From Candidatus Rifleibacteriota bacterium (GTDB taxonomy: Bacteria; Muiribacteriota; Ozemobacteria; Ozemobacterales; Ozemobacteraceae), in assembly GCA_017417215.1 (NCBI GenBank), contig JAFPZP010000050.1, positions 1-64,000 on the forward strand: a stretch of 64,000 nucleotides of DNA. Reading direction: 5' to 3'. The translations under genes were made by a program, and so were the position numbers. Positions 19,724-29,324 of the stretch are shown in pieces. Under the pieces are notes generated by a model, which was not told the DNA's origin, did no database searches, and saw only the letters and a program-made list of their open reading frames with translations. The stretch's first letter is position 1; each line of letters starts with the position of its first letter.

Positions 19724-20806
19724 ATGGCTAAGCGATTGATGAAAGGTTGTGAAGCATTAGCTGAAGCAGCCATTCTTGCAGGTTGTAGATATTATTTTGG
19801 CTCTCCTGTTGCACAGCAAGCAGAATTGTCTGCTTATTTATCTAAGCATCTTCCATTAGTGGATGGAACATATGTTCAAGCAGCAGATGAAATTTCAGCA
19901 ATTAACATGGTTTATGGTGCTGCCGCTGCTGGTGCTAGAGTAATGACATCAGGATCTAGCACTGGAATGAGTCTTAAGCAGGAAGGAATTTCTGGTATAG
20001 CTGCATCTGAACTTCCATGTGTAATTGTAAATACCATGTGTGGTGGTTCTGTTGCTGGCGCTTCTTGCCCGGCTCAGGCAGATTATTGGCAGGCTACCAG
20101 AGGTGGTACACACGGAGACTACAGAAATATAGTTTTTGCACCCTGTTCCGTTCAAGAAATGGCAGACATGACTATTGCTGGCTTTAATTATGCTGATCGT
20201 TTTAGAACTCCAGTGTTAATATTAGCAGACAGCATAGTGTCTCAAATGATGGAACCTGTAGAATTGCCTAAAGTTCCTTTTGATTATGACTTAGATAGTA
20301 AAAAATGGGCTTTGGGATTGCCTGGAACAAATAAACACAACAAAAATGTTTGTGCTTCAACTTTTACTGTTCAAGATGAGCTTGAAGAACATAACTGGCA
20401 TCTTTATCAAAAATATCAAGTAATAGGAAACCATTTTAATCAAGAAAATAAAGAATTAGCTATTGAAGAATATATGTGTGATGATGCCGAAATAGTTCTT
20501 GTTGGTTATGGTATTATTGCAAGATTACTGAAAACTGTAGTAGAAAAATGCAGAAAACGTGGTGTTAAAGCTGGTCTTGCTAGACCTAAAATTTTATGGC
20601 CTTTCCCAACTCAGGCATTTAAGAAGCTTTCTCAGAATACTGAAAAATTCATGGTAATTGAAATGTCCTGCGGTCAGATGGTTGAAGATGTTAAGATGGC
20701 TGTTAATGGTGCTAAACCAGTATACTTCTTTGGTAGAACTGGTGGAGCTGTTCCATCTGATTTTGAAATCTTCAACGAAGTAAGCAAATTAGTTTGCTTA
20801 GATTGA
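19724..20806 (+). CDS. 2-oxoacid:ferredoxin oxidoreductase-like alpha subunit (VorB/KorA type, divergent)
   Basis: This 360-residue protein aligns by eye along its whole length with VorB/KorA alpha subunits. It has GCEALAEAAILAG, EISAINMVYGAAAAGARVMTSGSSTGMSLKQEG and PVLILADSI. The Glu of DEISA, equivalent to the cofactor-activating Glu, is kept. Other signatures are changed: the usual GYPITP reads GSPVAQ, and RGGPSTG reads CGGSVAGAS. It is first in a three-gene set with beta- and gamma-like genes; no ferredoxin-type delta gene is present. It may no longer act as a normal thiamine-diphosphate enzyme. AAGGAG ribosome site. Confidence 0.8.
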   Translation: MAKRLMKGCEALAEAAILAGCRYYFGSPVAQQAELSAYLSKHLPLVDGTYVQAADEISAINMVYGAAAAGARVMTSGSSTGMSLKQEGISGIAASELPCVIVNTMCGGSVAGASCPAQADYWQATRGGTHGDYRNIVFAPCSVQEMADMTIAGFNYADRFRTPVLILADSIVSQMMEPVELPKVPFDYDLDSKKWALGLPGTNKHNKNVCASTFTVQDELEEHNWHLYQKYQVIGNHFNQENKELAIEEYMCDDAEIVLVGYGIIARLLKTVVEKCRKRGVKAGLARPKILWPFPTQAFKKLSQNTEKFMVIEMSCGQMVEDVKMAVNGAKPVYFFGRTGGAVPSDFEIFNEVSKLVCLD

Positions 20807-20819
20807 AAGGAGCAGAAAA

Positions 20820-21425
20820 ATGACTATGAATTTTCAACCAGATTCAGTTCAAACTATGATTGTTGAAGCAGTAGATGAAGTTGCTCCAAAATCAGGTATT
20901 GTAGGAGTTGCTCCTGTAAGTTGTGGGGCATTTATTTATGATGGCTTTGACTTCGATTTCTGCCAATCTGTTCCAGGTTGTGCTCCAGCAGTTGCTTCTG
21001 GAATAAAAAGAGTTAGACCAAATGCCTTAGTATTTACATATCAGAACAGTATCGACCTAGCAGCAGCAGGTATTTCAGAAGTATTGCATGCAGCTAATCG
21101 CGGAGAAAATATAAGCGTTATTTATGCTAATTCAGATAATAGTGAAACTAATAGCAGCGAAGAAAGCAGAATAAAAATATGTGAACTGCTGTCTGGTATA
21201 AATAATCCTGTATATATAACAAGAGTCGTTGCTACAGAAAAAGATAATAAGGCTGCTATAAAAGCAATTAAAAATGCTTTTAAGCTCCAGCTTGAAAACA
21301 AAGGTTTCTCTTTTATTGAGATTCTTACCGTTGTAGGAGATGAAGAAAGCAAAGAAGTAAAAGATTTGCTTGCTGAATTCCCTCCTAAAGTTTTTGTAGA
21401 TAAATGCGGCGTTGAAAAAGCCTGA
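20820..21425 (+). CDS. Oxidoreductase-like beta subunit lacking TPP and Fe-S motifs
   Basis: This 201-residue protein is shorter than normal (about 250-280). It matches the VorA/KorB family in APAVASGIKR, the FTYQ...DLAAAG frame, EVLHAANRGENISVIYAN and NAFKLQLENKGFSFIEIL. The decisive motifs are missing. The magnesium/thiamine-diphosphate loop YQGDGDL reads YQNSIDL. The NNAIYGMTGGQ segment is replaced by a short Ser/Asn/Glu stretch. The N-terminal CPGCGHG iron-sulfur motif and the later CPTNW are absent. It is therefore probably inactive in oxoacid cleavage and may be structural or serve another reaction. It is not a random pseudogene: the frame is intact and has an AAGGAG site. Confidence 0.75.
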   Translation: MTMNFQPDSVQTMIVEAVDEVAPKSGIVGVAPVSCGAFIYDGFDFDFCQSVPGCAPAVASGIKRVRPNALVFTYQNSIDLAAAGISEVLHAANRGENISVIYANSDNSETNSSEESRIKICELLSGINNPVYITRVVATEKDNKAAIKAIKNAFKLQLENKGFSFIEILTVVGDEESKEVKDLLAEFPPKVFVDKCGVEKA

Positions 21426-21448
21426 CAATAGAAAAAGGAGAAATTAAA

Positions 21449-22042
21449 ATGTCTTCAACAGTAGAAAGAGTTATATTAGCAGGCTTCAGCGGACATGGCA
21501 TTTTCTTTATGGGTAATGTCTTGGCAGAAGCTGGAATGCGTGCAGGTAAAAATGTTTCATTGGTTCCTTCATATAGTTCTGAACCAAAGGGCGGTCTTAT
21601 TAATTGTGCTTTATTAATGTCTGAAAAAGAGATTGCCTCTCCAATGATAACTGTTCCTGATACTGTTATTGCGATGAATAGAACTTCTGTTAATAAATTT
21701 AACCAGAAAATCAAAGGTGGCGGAATGTTAATGTATAACTCTTCATTAATAGATCGTCAGGAATTTCGTGATGATATCAGACTGGTAGAAATCCCAGCAA
21801 CTGAAATTGCCGCTGATCTTGGTGAACAGAAAGCTGCCAATATGGTTATGGCAGGTGCTTATGCTAAGTTTAGCAAACTAGTAATAGTAGAAGAAATCGA
21901 AAATTCCATAAGATATTTATTGAAGGACGAAAACAAAGAAGTAATCGAACTCAATATTGAAGCTGTTAAGAAGGGTTACGATTACGTTGAAGAAAAGAAA
22001 TATATGTTTGGTCGTTATGTACACTCTGTATTCAGAGTTTAA
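21449..22042 (+). CDS. Oxidoreductase-like gamma subunit (divergent)
   Basis: This 197-residue protein of the pyruvate/ketoisovalerate oxidoreductase gamma family aligns well with VorC-type proteins: VILAGFSGHGIFFMG, VLAEAGM, PDTVIAMN, YNSSLI and EIPATEIAADLG. The invariant GGQG reads SGHG, and YGPEMRGG reads YSSEPKGG. Those motifs shape the coenzyme A and cofactor site, so the change parallels the losses in the beta subunit. A strong AAGGAG ribosome site is present. It closes the trio and is followed by rsfS. Confidence 0.78.
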   Translation: MSSTVERVILAGFSGHGIFFMGNVLAEAGMRAGKNVSLVPSYSSEPKGGLINCALLMSEKEIASPMITVPDTVIAMNRTSVNKFNQKIKGGGMLMYNSSLIDRQEFRDDIRLVEIPATEIAADLGEQKAANMVMAGAYAKFSKLVIVEEIENSIRYLLKDENKEVIELNIEAVKKGYDYVEEKKYMFGRYVHSVFRV

Positions 22043-22062
22043 GAATGATAAGGTAATTATAA

Positions 22063-22401
22063 ATGGCTGATATTCCAGAATTATTGAAAATAGTTATAGA
22101 AACTTTGAAAGATAAAAAGGCTGAAGACCTTGTAGTGTTAGATGTAAAAAAACTAGTTAATTATACTGATTATTTTATAATTGCAACTGGTAATTCTACA
22201 ACACATGTTCAAACTTTGGCTGATGCAGTTGGTAAGCTTTTAAAGAAACCTGAAGAAGGTTTAAAACAGGAAGATGATCCTCAGGCTAATTGGTTGCTGA
22301 TCGATGGTGGCGACTTCGTTTTACATGTTTTCCAACCAAATGCTAGAAAATTCTATGGTTTGGAAGAACTTTGGGAAGACGCTGAAAGAGTTGAAATATA
22401 A
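22063..22401 (+). CDS. rsfS: Ribosomal silencing factor RsfS
   Basis: This 112-residue Iojap/RsfS-family protein shows DVKKLVNYTDYFIIATGNSTTHVQTLAD, followed by W-LLIDGGDFVLHVF and the C-terminal FYGLEELW. It binds uL14 on the large ribosomal subunit and blocks joining of subunits during starvation. The length is normal. It follows the gamma-like gene after 20 bases, likely in the same transcript. The repeat region starts at its stop codon. Confidence 0.95.
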   Translation: MADIPELLKIVIETLKDKKAEDLVVLDVKKLVNYTDYFIIATGNSTTHVQTLADAVGKLLKKPEEGLKQEDDPQANWLLIDGGDFVLHVFQPNARKFYGLEELWEDAERVEI

Positions 22402-23282: not shown

Positions 23283-24662
23283 ATGAAAACTATTTTTTCA
23301 AGGTCGATTATTGTTCTAGCTGCAATGACTCTTTTAAATGGTTCGTCTTGTAGTATTTATGCTTCTCCCTTTGATGAAGATGCTATAATTGAAACCACAC
23401 AGACTGTTAAAAGTTCGAGTAAATCTGAAGAATCTGAAATTATTGATAGTTCTTCCGAAAAAGAAGAAAAGAGCGGAGGCTTTTTATCTTCATTGGGAAG
23501 CAAGTTTAAAAAGGGTGTAAAGGCTGCTAAAAAGATTGTTGTTGGCGGTTATGAAAAAGCTACTAGTACAATCAATAATATAGCAAATAAAAAGAAAACA
23601 GCTTCTTATATCGTTGAATCTATTTTCTTACCAGGACACGAAAGTAAGGAAATGGTTTGTCAGGGTATCGCATATTTGCCTGACAAAATTATGGAAGCTA
23701 GCCAACAGGGAAATGGCGCTTATTGCCAGTATGTTCTCCTGTCTTATTACCCTAAAGATAGTGACCAGCCATCTCAAATTGTAGTTGTTGATAGAAAAAC
23801 AGAAAAAGCAGTTAAACGTTTTGCTTTATATAAGAGCAACGGAAAGGCTTATACCGGTCATGCAGGTGGAATTGCTGTGGCAGGCAAGTATTTGTGGGTT
23901 GCTTCTGGTAATACACTCTATGGTTATGATTTACAGGAAATAATTGATTTTATTGGTAATAAAACCGCAGAAGCTACTGATGTTTCTGGTTTACCAAAGA
24001 GTTTAGATAAATTGCCTGGTAAGAATATAACTACTGTAAAAACTTATAAAGTAGACAGTAAAGCTAGCTTTGTAAGTTTTGATGGAAAATATATTTGGGT
24101 TGGCGATTTTACAAAAGGCAAAAGTTACAAACCTGTAAAACACCACAAGATTATGGGTAGAAATTGTTGGATAGCTGGTTATCTAGTTGATTCAGATGGC
24201 TATCCTACATCAAATGTTGAGTATTCTTATAAAGATGGTGATGATACAGAAAGTGTTCATAAACCCGATGCTGTAATTGCAATGCGTGATTCTGTTCAGG
24301 GTATGGCTGTATGTGGCGATTATGTGGCTTTAACTGTTTCATATGGGGCAACTAATTCAAAGCTTGCAATCTATAATAATCCATTAAAAACAGATAGTGA
24401 AAGGGTAACATATAAGCCAGAAGGTCAGTCTAAGAGCTTTACTGTTGATGCTTGGGAATTAGCAGATAAAAAGAACTGGTTAGAAACAGTTAAGATAGCT
24501 GCTGGCGCTGAAGACCTTGAATATGACGGAAAGAATCTTTATGTAACCTTTGAATGTTCTTCTAAAAACTATAAACAGAAGTGGAAAAATATTAATCCTA
24601 CTATAAAAATGACAGATGATTTTTATTTAATTAATCCGCAAAGTATAGTTTCTGATAAGTAA
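23283..24662 (+). CDS. Exported propeller-like protein, paralogue 1
   Basis: This 459-residue protein has a signal peptide and a Ser/Glu/Lys-rich spacer (residues 38-75). A conserved domain starts near PGHESKEMVCQGIAYLPDK. Repeated strands such as GGIAVAGKYLWVASGNTLYGYDL and ASFVSFDGKYIWVGDF suggest a beta-propeller. The next gene encodes a close paralogue with the same domain but a different spacer. No catalytic motif is recognised. Its own terminator follows, so the two copies are separate units. Confidence 0.6.
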   Translation: MKTIFSRSIIVLAAMTLLNGSSCSIYASPFDEDAIIETTQTVKSSSKSEESEIIDSSSEKEEKSGGFLSSLGSKFKKGVKAAKKIVVGGYEKATSTINNIANKKKTASYIVESIFLPGHESKEMVCQGIAYLPDKIMEASQQGNGAYCQYVLLSYYPKDSDQPSQIVVVDRKTEKAVKRFALYKSNGKAYTGHAGGIAVAGKYLWVASGNTLYGYDLQEIIDFIGNKTAEATDVSGLPKSLDKLPGKNITTVKTYKVDSKASFVSFDGKYIWVGDFTKGKSYKPVKHHKIMGRNCWIAGYLVDSDGYPTSNVEYSYKDGDDTESVHKPDAVIAMRDSVQGMAVCGDYVALTVSYGATNSKLAIYNNPLKTDSERVTYKPEGQSKSFTVDAWELADKKNWLETVKIAAGAEDLEYDGKNLYVTFECSSKNYKQKWKNINPTIKMTDDFYLINPQSIVSDK

Positions 24663-24797: not shown

Positions 24798-26228
24798 ATG
24801 AAGAAATGTTATTCTAAGGCATTATTGGCGGCAGCCGTATTTATGCTTCTTAATACTTCTTGCACTAATTGTTTTGCTTCACCTTTTGATGAAGATGGTT
24901 TAATAACCAAAATAAAAAATGGTGCTAAGGAAAAGCTTAGTGATGCAAAAGATTTTGTTGTAGATAAAGCTGGAGATGTAAAAGATTTCGTAGTCGATAA
25001 AGCTAAAGATGCGAAAGACTTTGTTGTAGATAAGGCTAAAGACACAAAAGATTTTGTTAAAGAAAAAGCAAGTGATGTAAAAGAAGGTATTAAAGATTGC
25101 TATAGTAAAGCTACATCTAAGATTAATACCTTGTTTAATAAAGGTAAACTGCCTTCTTATGTAAAAGAAGCTATTTTTATACCTGGTCATGAAAGTAAAG
25201 AAATGGTTTGTCAGGGTATTGCTTATTTGCCTGACAAAGTCATGGAACCAAGTGAACAACCAGATGGTTCATACTACAGATATGTTCTTTTATCTTATTA
25301 TCCGAAAGAAAGCGAACAACCTTCTCAGCTAGTTGTTATAGACAGACAAACAGGAAAACCTGTTAAGCGTTTCCCTCTCTATAAGAAAAGTGGAAAGCCC
25401 TATACCGGTCATGCTGGTGGCGTAGCTGTTGTAGGTAGATATGTCTGGGTTGTTTCTGGTAGATGTCTATATGGTTTCAGTACTCAAGAAATAATCAACT
25501 TTATTTCTGATAAAAATACTAAGGCTAAGGCAGAAGAAGGTTTACCGGATAGTTTCGACGCTTTGCCAGCTTATAGACTTACTGCCATGGCTGATTACGA
25601 CGTAGACAGTAAAGCAAGCTTTATAAGCTTTGATGGAAAATACATTTGGGTTGGCGATTTCGCAAAAGGAATCGGCAAAGAATATAGCCCAATAAAGCAT
25701 CATAAGATTATGGGCAAAAATGCATGGGTTGCTGGTTATTTGGTTGATTCTGAAGGTTATCCTACATCAACAGAAGAATACTCTTATAAAGATGGCGATG
25801 ATACAGAATATGCCCATAAACCAGATGTTGTTGTAGCAATACGTGATTTTGTTCAGGGATTAGCTTTCTGTGATAAATATGTTGCTTTATCAATATCTAT
25901 GGGACCAATTAATTCTAGATTAGCAATGTATAAAAATCCATTGGATACAAAGAGTAAAAAGATCACTTATTCTCCTGAAGGATGCGATAAAAGCTTTACT
26001 GTTGATGCCTGGGGTCTCGGAAGTGGTCTGTTGAAATCTTCGGTTAAAACTGTTAAATATTCTTGTGGTTCTGAAGATATGGAATATGATGGCAAATATC
26101 TTTATGTTGCTTTTGAATGCTCATCAAAGAATTATTGCCAATCTTGGAAAAATATAAATCCGACTGTTAAAATGACAGAAGATTTTTATATTATTGATCC
26201 TGAAATAGTCGTTAAAAAAGGTAAATAA
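24798..26228 (+). CDS. Exported propeller-like protein, paralogue 2, with 11-residue repeats
   Basis: This 476-residue protein has a signal peptide, then four copies of an 11-residue unit (DKAKDAKDFVV-like, residues about 46-90). The same propeller-like domain as in its neighbour follows. The 11-mers resemble LEA or apolipoprotein helices, which form amphipathic rods and may lie on a membrane. The domain keeps PGHESKEMVCQG, GGVAVVGRYVWVVSG and SFDGKYIWVGDF. The two genes look like a tandem duplication in which only the spacer differs strongly. Function is unknown. The AAGGAG ribosome site is good. Confidence 0.62.
   Translation: MKKCYSKALLAAAVFMLLNTSCTNCFASPFDEDGLITKIKNGAKEKLSDAKDFVVDKAGDVKDFVVDKAKDAKDFVVDKAKDTKDFVKEKASDVKEGIKDCYSKATSKINTLFNKGKLPSYVKEAIFIPGHESKEMVCQGIAYLPDKVMEPSEQPDGSYYRYVLLSYYPKESEQPSQLVVIDRQTGKPVKRFPLYKKSGKPYTGHAGGVAVVGRYVWVVSGRCLYGFSTQEIINFISDKNTKAKAEEGLPDSFDALPAYRLTAMADYDVDSKASFISFDGKYIWVGDFAKGIGKEYSPIKHHKIMGKNAWVAGYLVDSEGYPTSTEEYSYKDGDDTEYAHKPDVVVAIRDFVQGLAFCDKYVALSISMGPINSRLAMYKNPLDTKSKKITYSPEGCDKSFTVDAWGLGSGLLKSSVKTVKYSCGSEDMEYDGKYLYVAFECSSKNYCQSWKNINPTVKMTEDFYIIDPEIVVKKGK
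24940..25075 (+). repeat. 33-bp coding tandem repeat
   Basis: About four imperfect 33-bp units encode the DKA-D-KDFVV helix repeats of the second secreted paralogue. Confidence 0.75.
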
Positions 26229-26312: not shown

Positions 26313-29300
26313 TTACTTCTTGGTAAGTCCGCCATTTCTGCCGTATTTAGCATGTGCATTAGTGAATTCATCAGATGCCATAGCACCAGTAATTGATATT
26401 TCACCTGCAAGAACTGTTGCTGCAAGAATTTCAGCCAGTTTCTTTGCTTTGCCAGGACCAGAACACTGCATTAATTCCAAGCACTTCTTCTGGGTTGGGA
26501 GTCTTGTTCCACCACCAACTGTACCTACCATTACGTCAGGCAGAGTTACGCTAACTTGTAAAGCAACATCGATAAGCTTCATGTAGGTTACACCACAAGC
26601 AGATTCAGCGACACAGGCTGGGTCTTGACCAGCTGCTATGTATACTGCAGCAAGCATATTTGCATAATGTGCTTGAACACCATAAGAATGAGCCTGTAGA
26701 GAAGTAATCATTGTCAATTCACCAAGTCTGATAATTCTTTCTGGTGTTGTATGTAAGAACTGTTTAACTATATCTGCTGGTATTCTTACAACTGCGACTA
26801 CTTTCTTCCCGCGGTTTCTTGTGAAGTTGACCGCGTTGACTTTCTTATCGCCTGAAAGATTTGATTCTAGGAACCAATCATAAATAGAACCGTCATAGGT
26901 GTTGAGAATGTATTCTATAGCTGCTCTTGTTGCAATAGTGGTCATATTCTGACCAGAAGCATCACCAGTTGAATAAACCATTCTTAGAACGAGCTGAGTT
27001 CCTATTGGATACTGTTCTATAGTGAGCATTTTGCCAAACTTTGTAGTACTGTCAGCAACTTTTTTAATACCAGCAAAGTTATTGGATATCCAAGCTGAGA
27101 ATTTTTCTAAGTCGGAAAGAGTTGCAAATTCAAATACTGGTGTTCTGATAAGGCTATCTTCTAGTATACGAACTTCTGCACCACCAGACATGGTTATTAT
27201 CTGGCAACCACGAGCTACTGAAGAAACCAGAGCACCTTCAGTGGTAGCTAATGGAATATAGAAATCGCCGTCAGCATGTTCGCCTTTTACTTTTAAAGGA
27301 CCGCAAATACCTATTGGTAAAGTTACAAATCCGGCAAAACCTTCGATGTTACCGCAATAAGCTTCTGGATCATCTGGTTTTGGTAAAGCAAAATTCTGAT
27401 TACCAGTGTAGTTTCTAATGAATTTCTGTCTAGCTTCAATAGCTTCTAATGAGTAGTCTAATAGCGGAGGCATATCTTCGCTTGTAGCTGTTTCAGAACG
27501 ATTTACTTCTGACATCTTGCTTGTATCTACTTTAGTTGCTAAGAAAGAGAACAAATCATCAAAAGTTTCTACAGAGCTACCAATCAATTCTTTAAAAGAA
27601 ATGCCGAAACGTTTTTCTAGCTTAAGAAGCATTGCTATAACGCCAAGAGAATCAAGCTGTATAAAAGAATCTAGTCTTGTTGTCAGCTTAATCTTGTGAT
27701 AGTCAGCTTTTAAGAAATTTGCTATTTCCTGTCGGAATGCTTCGAAAAGCTGTTCATTTCTTGGGGCGGAGCTTATTTCTTCGTGCTTTGGTCCGATTTC
27801 CGGCTGTTTACGTTCTTTGTTGCTTAAAGCTTCTGCTAATTCAAAACGTTTAACTTTAGTGCTGGCAGAACGTGGTAACGGTGAGCCAAGCATGAATATC
27901 TTTCTGATTTTTTCTGTTTCTGGCCAATCTTCTGTCTTTGAGCGAAGATCTGCTTCAACAAAGTTAAGTATATCTTCTGAGGCTTTACCTTCAAATACGC
28001 CTTTTCTTGGAACGAAAGCAAAGGCTGGAACTTCAAGATCATCTAGAACAATACCAAAAATAGAATATTCTTCAGCATATTTTAAAGTACCCAATCTAAC
28101 TTCAAGTTCATCAGGATAAACATTTACACCTGAACCAGAAATAATTACTTCTTTTGCTCTTCCGCGTATGTATAGGTTGCCTTTTTCATCTATTGAAGCC
28201 AAGTCGCCAGTTTTGAAAAATCCATTTTCGAATAGAGTCTGGTCAAGTTCTGGCTGGTTATAGATGCCAGATAACAATGTTGGTGAAGATACAAGGAGTT
28301 CGCCAACGCCGTCAGTAGGATTGTTAAGTTTTACTTTAACAACATCTAAGGGTTTACCTATAGAATCCGGAGGACAATCGCCACTGTTGAAAATAATGCC
28401 AGCAGCTGTTTCTGTCATACCAAAACCTTGAGAAATCTTAACGCCTTTGCTAGCTAAGAACATTATTGTTTTTGGACTGGGAGCTGCGCCACCAACAACG
28501 ATATCTATTGGGGGAAGCTTGAAGTCTGGGTTCTGCATGAATGACAAAGCGAGAAGATCACAGAGTCTTGGAACTGCTAATAAGAATCTGGACTGGTATT
28601 TTAATATAAGACCAAACATTTCTGCTGGGTTAAGAGTGTTGCATAATATGTTGGTGCAGTGCCAATACAAAGGTGCAATACCTGAGTCTACCAATGCAAA
28701 TACATGGCTGAAGGGTAAAATTGTAACAATCTTGTCTTTGGGATTACAGTGAACAAGATCTTTTGCAATTCTTGCAGACTCAATAATTGCTCTGTGACTG
28801 AGCATTATTCCTTTGGGTCTGCCAGTTGTGCCTGATGTATACATTAATGTAGCTATATCATGAGGCTTTATTTCTCTATCAGCAGGTGCATGAGCAGTGC
28901 TGTTCCCTTTTACCAATATTTCATATTCGTCTTCAAAGATAAATTTGGCTTTATATTCGTTAGGAATATATTGGCTAAATCTTTGAGAATATTTGCGCAT
29001 CATGATTATGACGGCAGGATTACTGTCTGCTAGAACAGATTGGAATCTATCTAAGGCGGTATTTCCATCTAATGGAACTGCTATTTTGCCAGAGCTTGCA
29101 ATTCCTATAAAAATTGGTAGCCAATAAAGGTGATTTTCTGTTACCATCAGGACTCTTTCGCCTCTATTGATGGCAACTTTATTAAGTAAATCTGCTATTT
29201 CTTGTGTCTTTTCTTCAAACTGCTGATAAGTTAGTTTAGAAATCTTACCTGCTTGTTCAAATATAATAGCATCAAGGTCAGCAATTTCGCTGATATTCTG

Positions 29301-29324
29301 TATTTTCAGAGTATCTCCAAACAT
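26313..29324 (-). CDS. Fusion: AMP-forming acyl-CoA/ACP ligase - acyl carrier domain - class I HMG-CoA reductase
   Basis: This 1003-residue protein has three domains in one frame. Residues 1-510 are an AMP-forming ligase with YTSGTTGRPKG (162-172), GFGMTETAAG (301-310), GDL and the C-terminal Lys490. Residues 525-600 are an acyl carrier domain with LDSLGV, where Ser559 should carry phosphopantetheine. Residues 620-1003 match class I HMG-CoA reductase: ATTEGALVSS (Glu696), GDASGQNM, GDKKVNAVNF (Lys827), GQDPA (Asp901), VGGGT and His991. All four catalytic residues are present. The ligase could load an acid onto the carrier and the reductase could reduce that thioester to an alcohol. Normal HMG-CoA reductases stand alone. 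No other mevalonate genes lie here. The domains are sure; the joint reaction is inferred. Confidence 0.9.
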   Translation of the reverse strand: MFGDTLKIQNISEIADLDAIIFEQAGKISKLTYQQFEEKTQEIADLLNKVAINRGERVLMVTENHLYWLPIFIGIASSGKIAVPLDGNTALDRFQSVLADSNPAVIIMMRKYSQRFSQYIPNEYKAKFIFEDEYEILVKGNSTAHAPADREIKPHDIATLMYTSGTTGRPKGIMLSHRAIIESARIAKDLVHCNPKDKIVTILPFSHVFALVDSGIAPLYWHCTNILCNTLNPAEMFGLILKYQSRFLLAVPRLCDLLALSFMQNPDFKLPPIDIVVGGAAPSPKTIMFLASKGVKISQGFGMTETAAGIIFNSGDCPPDSIGKPLDVVKVKLNNPTDGVGELLVSSPTLLSGIYNQPELDQTLFENGFFKTGDLASIDEKGNLYIRGRAKEVIISGSGVNVYPDELEVRLGTLKYAEEYSIFGIVLDDLEVPAFAFVPRKGVFEGKASEDILNFVEADLRSKTEDWPETEKIRKIFMLGSPLPRSASTKVKRFELAEALSNKERKQPEIGPKHEEISSAPRNEQLFEAFRQEIANFLKADYHKIKLTTRLDSFIQLDSLGVIAMLLKLEKRFGISFKELIGSSVETFDDLFSFLATKVDTSKMSEVNRSETATSEDMPPLLDYSLEAIEARQKFIRNYTGNQNFALPKPDDPEAYCGNIEGFAGFVTLPIGICGPLKVKGEHADGDFYIPLATTEGALVSSVARGCQIITMSGGAEVRILEDSLIRTPVFEFATLSDLEKFSAWISNNFAGIKKVADSTTKFGKMLTIEQYPIGTQLVLRMVYSTGDASGQNMTTIATRAAIEYILNTYDGSIYDWFLESNLSGDKKVNAVNFTRNRGKKVVAVVRIPADIVKQFLHTTPERIIRLGELTMITSLQAHSYGVQAHYANMLAAVYIAAGQDPACVAESACGVTYMKLIDVALQVSVTLPDVMVGTVGGGTRLPTQKKCLELMQCSGPGKAKKLAEILAATVLAGEISITGAMASDEFTNAHAKYGRNGGLTKK

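Follow-up and report, generated by a model that had tools for sequence, protein, structure and literature searches.

HMG-CoA reductase (HMGR) is usually read as a mark of the mevalonate pathway. A gene of a Candidatus Rifleibacteriota bacterium, in which an HMGR-like domain is joined to an AMP-forming ligase and an acyl carrier domain, raises the question of whether the reductase still makes mevalonate or acts on another acyl group held by the carrier. We analyzed it within a 64,000-nucleotide stretch of contig JAFPZP010000050.1 (the window) and across related genomes. The gene is read on the minus strand, from an ATG at 29324 to a stop codon ending at 26313, and its translation contains no internal stops. 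The core of the original prediction was one frame with an AMP-forming ligase, a carrier with LDSL and Ser559, and the four catalytic residues of a class I HMGR-like domain; all of this was confirmed, with each residue as given there (Table 1).

Table 1 Features of the fusion gene, with coordinates in the window and human HMGR equivalents where applicable.
Feature	Position	Strand	Basis
Whole fusion gene with its stop codon, encoding 1003 aa	26313..29324	-	Open frame and homologues
AMP-forming ligase domain, residues 1-505 (Pfam AMP-binding 18-355)	27810..29324	-	E 4.7e-60; Foldseek
Ligase P-loop motif YTSGTTGRPKG, residues 162-172	28809..28841	-	Sequence motif
Ligase A10 lysine Lys490 (PRSASTKVKR)	27855..27857	-	Alignment
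Acyl carrier domain, residues 529-578	27591..27740	-	PP-binding match; three helices in model
Ser559, predicted phosphopantetheine attachment site (LDSLG)	27648..27650	-	Invariant in 19-row alignment
HMG-CoA-reductase-like domain, residues 628-996	26337..27443	-	Pfam HMG-CoA_red E 3e-108; 6hr7 match
Catalytic Glu696 (human Glu559)	27237..27239	-	Alignment
Catalytic Lys827 (human Lys691)	26844..26846	-	Alignment
Catalytic Asp901 (human Asp767)	26622..26624	-	Alignment
Catalytic His991 (human His866)	26352..26354	-	Alignment
Variant cofactor motif GDASGQNM (classical GDAMGMNM), residues 787-794	26943..26966	-	Alignment
Glu820 at human Ser684 position (HMG carboxylate contact)	26865..26867	-	Alignment
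Leu870 at human Lys735 position (HMG carboxylate salt bridge)	26715..26717	-	Alignment, uncertain by one residue

The ligase domain carries the marks of ANL adenylating enzymes, namely the A3 P-loop and the A10 lysine, the latter missing solely in the shortened homologue of one genome (G004). Its best NCBIfam subfamily, long-chain fatty acid, scored under its cut-off and is therefore weak evidence on the substrate. The PP-binding match in the window's protein was weak (E 0.006, under the Pfam gathering score), and the same family (PF00550) was found in 11 of 19 homologues (best 1.9e-6). A four-helix carrier with a DSL serine is thus recognizable from the invariant Ser559, the PF00550 matches in homologues and the helices of the predicted structure. 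This model is of modest confidence (pLDDT 74, pTM 0.47) and shows the carrier region as three helices, the second of which opens with Ser559. Foldseek matched the fusion to acyl-CoA ligases, A-PCP didomains (3rg2, 4r0m) and the archaeal HMGR 6hr7, to which the reductase domain is ~40% identical over its length.

The same three-domain order recurs in other genomes as full-length, single-frame homologues. These were present in all three congeners searched (90–93% identity), in most other Ozemobacteraceae (Riflebacteria; 38–58%) and in four of four Wallbacteria genomes (41–43%), and two families of the phylum carry homologues with the ligase, carrier and reductase active-site residues in single frames. 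In a second collection, the named records with the fusion were Candidatus Riflebacteria, Candidatus Ozemobacter sibiricus and Candidatus Wallbacteria. Among the 80 best loci no ligase-HMGR frame occurred outside Riflebacteria and Wallbacteria, and the distribution of such frames may be wider. Ser559, Glu696, Lys827, Asp901 and His991 were invariant across the fusion homologues in a 19-row alignment. Within the window's genus, dN/dS was 0.05–0.07 for the ligase, 0.01–0.02 for the carrier and 0.02–0.03 for the reductase, values that are approximate because synonymous sites are near saturation (dS 1.0–1.9), and all three domains are under purifying selection.

Changes in the substrate pocket were assessed by aligning the fusion reductases with standalone relatives, archaeal enzymes and human HMGR, with human positions numbered as in 1dq8. 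In human and plant HMGR, Arg590, Ser684, Asp690, Lys691, Lys692 and Asn755 make polar contacts to the HMG moiety of statins, and Lys735 forms a salt bridge with its far carboxylate (PMC9500038). The classical rows, human and archaeal, have GDAMGMN, Ser684 and Lys735. DASGQN replaces DAMGMN in all fusions, and GDA[SAG]GQN, apart from one row with a different residue at the Asp, is common to the fusions and a large group of standalone bacterial proteins, as are an acidic residue (Glu or Asp) at 684 and the lack of a basic one at 735. All 14 fusions carry Glu or Asp at 684 and Leu, Val, Met or Thr at 735; the alignment around Leu870 is uncertain by one residue, yet there is no basic residue nearby. 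In a third group, of Pseudomonas type, the motif is GDAAGQN, position 684 is Ser or Glu and Lys735 is missing; the CoA-contact positions 567 and 571 vary in all groups. In an unrooted maximum-likelihood tree of the reductase domain, the fusion, standalone GQN, Pseudomonas-type and classical sequences each fell on one side of a branch (support 100/99–100), such that the fusion reductases form one clade. Because the catalytic residues stay while the HMG contacts at 684 and 735 are replaced, the reductase chemistry has probably been kept and the substrate changed to something other than HMG. It is speculative to read the acidic residue at 684 as the sign of a substrate with an amine.

We propose, and modestly favor, that the fusion is a carboxylate-reducing enzyme of the A-T-R type (adenylation, carrier, reductase) whose HMGR-fold domain turns an acid other than HMG, tethered to the carrier, into an alcohol. 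The ligase domain would adenylate a carboxylic acid, probably lipid-type, with ATP to give an acyl-AMP, from which the acyl group would pass to a phosphopantetheine arm on Ser559. Once the arm has delivered the thioester to the HMGR-like domain, Lys827, Asp901, Glu696 and His991 would use two NADPH to reduce it, first to an aldehyde that stays on the enzyme and then to a primary alcohol, in the manner of HMGR on HMG-CoA. Across most of the family this alcohol would enter a lipid pathway whose other members are a formyltransferase, a UbiA-type transferase, a PEP-synthase-like enzyme, a BtaA-type aminocarboxypropyltransferase and an RND exporter. We infer the activity, tethered reduction, cofactor choice, alcohol product and substrate class, the thioester-to-alcohol step from HMGR chemistry and the tethering from the conservation of the three-domain chain. 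The self-contained acid-to-alcohol machine of the original prediction, with a ligase that loads the carrier and a reductase that acts on the tethered acyl group, is supported at the level of anatomy (conserved active sites, and a PPTase gene in the window's genus), while transfer between the conserved domains of the one chain is a proposal from sequence. With the HMG-recognizing residues replaced, the protein probably converts an acid to an alcohol in an as yet unstudied lipid pathway.

Carboxylic acid reductases (CARs), which release aldehydes, and the A-T-R enzymes of NRPS and α-aminoadipate systems likewise have adenylation, carrier and NADPH reductase domains in this order in one chain, and work by the steps that we propose for the fusion, in which an acid is activated, tethered and released by reduction (PMC10168641, PMC2835699). 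Their R domain has a short-chain dehydrogenase/reductase (SDR) fold, whereas that of the fusion has the HMGR fold (PF00368, HMG-CoA_red), which should favor four-electron reduction. Since it has no SDR domain, the fusion does not belong to the CAR family. ElbD, a multidomain protein of ether lipid synthesis in Myxococcus xanthus, also joins a ligase and a carrier to a putative fatty acyl reductase, but that reductase is FAR1-like and N-terminal, and ElbD has an acyltransferase domain and no HMGR domain (PMC9131029). Class I HMGRs, human and archaeal, of which 6hr7 is the closest solved structure, have the fold and four catalytic residues in common with the fusion, and differ from it in the cofactor motif, the residues at 684 and 735 and the absence of a fused ligase and carrier. 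Because neither the motif nor the HMG contacts are those of a mevalonate-forming HMGR, it cannot be filed as one. We consider it a variant of the A-T-R kind with an HMGR-fold reductase, for which no earlier description was found in open-licence papers. To our knowledge no other A-T-R enzyme has an HMGR fold, and the fusion would be the first. It is also a possible one-protein catalyst for turning acids into alcohols, and its ligase domain offers a direct experimental handle on the substrate.

Standalone HMGR-like genes with GDA[SAG]GQN share with the fusion the motif, the pocket changes and the gene neighbors, although they are unfused to ligase and carrier and the fusion reductases form their own clade. 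They occur in a multi-phylum cluster with genes for UbiA, a PEP-synthase-like protein (PigC/RedH-like), BtaA/DUF3419, a membrane protein, GNAT or formyltransferase, and an OleC-like ligase (for example L086:7782-17041, L104:6270-15526, L111:958-10223 and L072:1689-12144). Among the 80 best loci, at least two of these genes lay near the standalone GQN reductase in 31 of 33 non-Vibrionaceae loci, and near the HMGR-like gene in none of 27 Vibrionaceae, 10 Pseudomonas-type and five archaeal loci. In the Verrucomicrobium locus L072, a single run comprises genes for formyltransferase, ligase, UbiA, PEP-synthase-like, HMGR-like, DUF3419 and membrane proteins but lacks the GNAT gene that most other clusters have. 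As far as one case can suggest, formyltransferase and GNAT may thus play equivalent parts in acting on an amine. Open-licence papers, including those on DUF3419, on Riflebacteria with HMGR and on HMGR with carrier proteins, yielded no description of the ligase-carrier-HMGR fusion or of the cluster. A broader reading, which we hold tentatively and stop just short of calling probable, is that the bacterial GQN-type ‘HMG-CoA reductases’ do not make mevalonate but reduce thioesters in a hitherto undescribed lipid pathway found in several phyla (HMGR-like, UbiA, PEP-synthase-like, BtaA-type, phytol-kinase-like, GNAT or formyltransferase, and OleC-like ligase), and that this reductase turned into an A-T-HMGR acid-to-alcohol enzyme in Riflebacteria and Wallbacteria. 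If the GQN group does reduce other thioesters, many bacterial annotations would be wrong (Vibrio, Ruegeria, Geobacter, Planctomycetota), and a conserved, probably lipid-making gene cluster would be open to discovery.

As these standalone relatives function without a fused carrier, the HMGR-like domain may use CoA thioesters. The reductase might then act on free acyl-CoA, with the ligase and carrier fused to it only for co-regulation and performing a separate or earlier step, such as providing the formyltransferase or another partner with a loaded acyl group. The proximity of standalone GQN-type reductases to a separate OleC-like ligase agrees with this, as does the G004 homologue (L050:6326-9097), in which the ligase P-loop is degenerate (YKSVTTGESKS) and the C-terminal ligase subdomain is gone, so the ligase is dispensable there, while the carrier Ser is intact and the reductase residues are mostly kept, with Ser at the Lys692 position. 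However, Ser559 is invariant and the three domains keep their order in one chain in all fusion genomes, including those of the window's genus, where the partners are lacking, and we regard action on free acyl-CoA as unlikely, though the most serious of the alternatives. In G004 a second UbiA gene adjoins the fusion (L050) and the main cluster is on another contig (L148).

The gene neighborhood bears on the product of the tethered reduction that we propose. Outside the window's genus, the gene immediately after the fusion usually encodes a 252-aa protein of formyltransferase fold, in which the Asn-His-Asp residues of that family are conserved. The model of this protein (pLDDT 93) most resembles the ArnA formyltransferase domain and methionyl-tRNA formyltransferase. 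Every fusion genome tested there has a UbiA-like gene, and all but one (76% complete) have DUF3419. The genes for UbiA, the PEP-synthase-like protein, RND/MMPL and DUF3419 stand together in a run, and in several genera this run adjoins the fusion. Since BtaA, which makes diacylglycerol-O-homoserine (PMC10685587), belongs to DUF3419, and since the RND protein has a weak resemblance to HpnN-type exporters, the product of the fusion-associated cluster is likely a lipid. Two genomes of family f7 without an HMGR match (G029 and G034; L143, L144) also have the UbiA, PEP-synthase-like and RND run, with DUF3419 elsewhere on the contig by family search.

No such formyltransferase and none of the cluster's UbiA-like, DUF3419 and PEP-synthase-like genes were found in the window's genus. 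Because the window's assembly is 69% complete, gene absences rest on relatives, here including two congeners that are 95–96% complete. We abandoned, as a general rule, a model in which the fusion would reduce the homoserine carboxylate that DUF3419 adds, since this genus keeps the fusion without DUF3419. Two genes near the fusion there, by our reading RsmE-like and MtaB-like, are the ones that lie next to the cluster in genera g2 and g5, and loss of the partners at an old locus is therefore more likely than recent arrival. Retention without partners, under purifying selection, suggests that the fusion's own reaction is self-contained.

Enzymes with the HMGR fold normally perform both hydride steps without releasing the aldehyde, and the catalytic residues are intact in the fusion. 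It is therefore improbable that the fusion, in the way of most carboxylic acid reductases, goes no further than the aldehyde and supplies this to a pathway, although its domain order is that of the aldehyde-releasing CARs (PMC10168641).

The original prediction had also raised a carrier-bound route to mevalonate, and a related salvage version would have the ligase activate 3-hydroxy-3-methylglutarate and the reductase make mevalonate from it. The HMGR catalytic residues and the Arg590 equivalent are kept, as is the Lys692 equivalent in all but one fusion. However, the Ser684 and Lys735 equivalents are replaced, in the fusions as in the standalone relatives, and gene content rejects a classical mevalonate pathway: a separate HMG-CoA synthase (PF08540) was found in none of 37 relatives, and the mevalonate-diphosphate decarboxylase MvaD (TIGR01240) was over cut-off in none of them. 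HMG-CoA lyase (NF004283) passed its cut-off in no fusion-bearing genome and, among the 37 relatives, only in family f3, which is without the fusion. IspH of the MEP pathway was present in 31 of 37 relatives and in 17 of 17 high-quality genomes, so that fusion genomes are taken to use the MEP pathway, and we consider either mevalonate route highly improbable. A class I HMGR domain occurred at most once per genome and always within the fusion; no separate one was found in fusion genomes. The one other HMGR of the phylum, in G038 of another family (G038:C129, L163:1-1700), reads as class II (DAMGANAVN) and adjoins an apparent type 2 IPP isomerase, and that family possibly has a real mevalonate pathway.

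HMGR chemistry is reversible in principle, and class II HMGR can run oxidatively in mevalonate degradation. For the fusion to oxidize an alcohol or aldehyde to a thioester in this way is very improbable, since an ATP-using ligase in the same chain fits acid activation rather than acid formation. That an assembly or sequencing error joined two genes is excluded for practical purposes by the same single frame in ~20 separately assembled genomes, with uninterrupted homologues at 38–93% identity.

Elsewhere among the HMGR-like genes, the ‘HMG-CoA reductases’ of Vibrio and Photobacterium (Vibrionaceae, L062-L130) have the GQN motif and Asp684 outside the cluster, and in L062 a YccS-family transporter gene lies near the HMGR-like gene. 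In the window, a gene run at 19724-22401 resembles 2-oxoacid:ferredoxin oxidoreductase, homologues of which are also near the fusion in G004 (L050). Neighboring paralogues at 23283-24662 and 24798-26228 encode putative secreted proteins, and are paired in G002 (L031) too.
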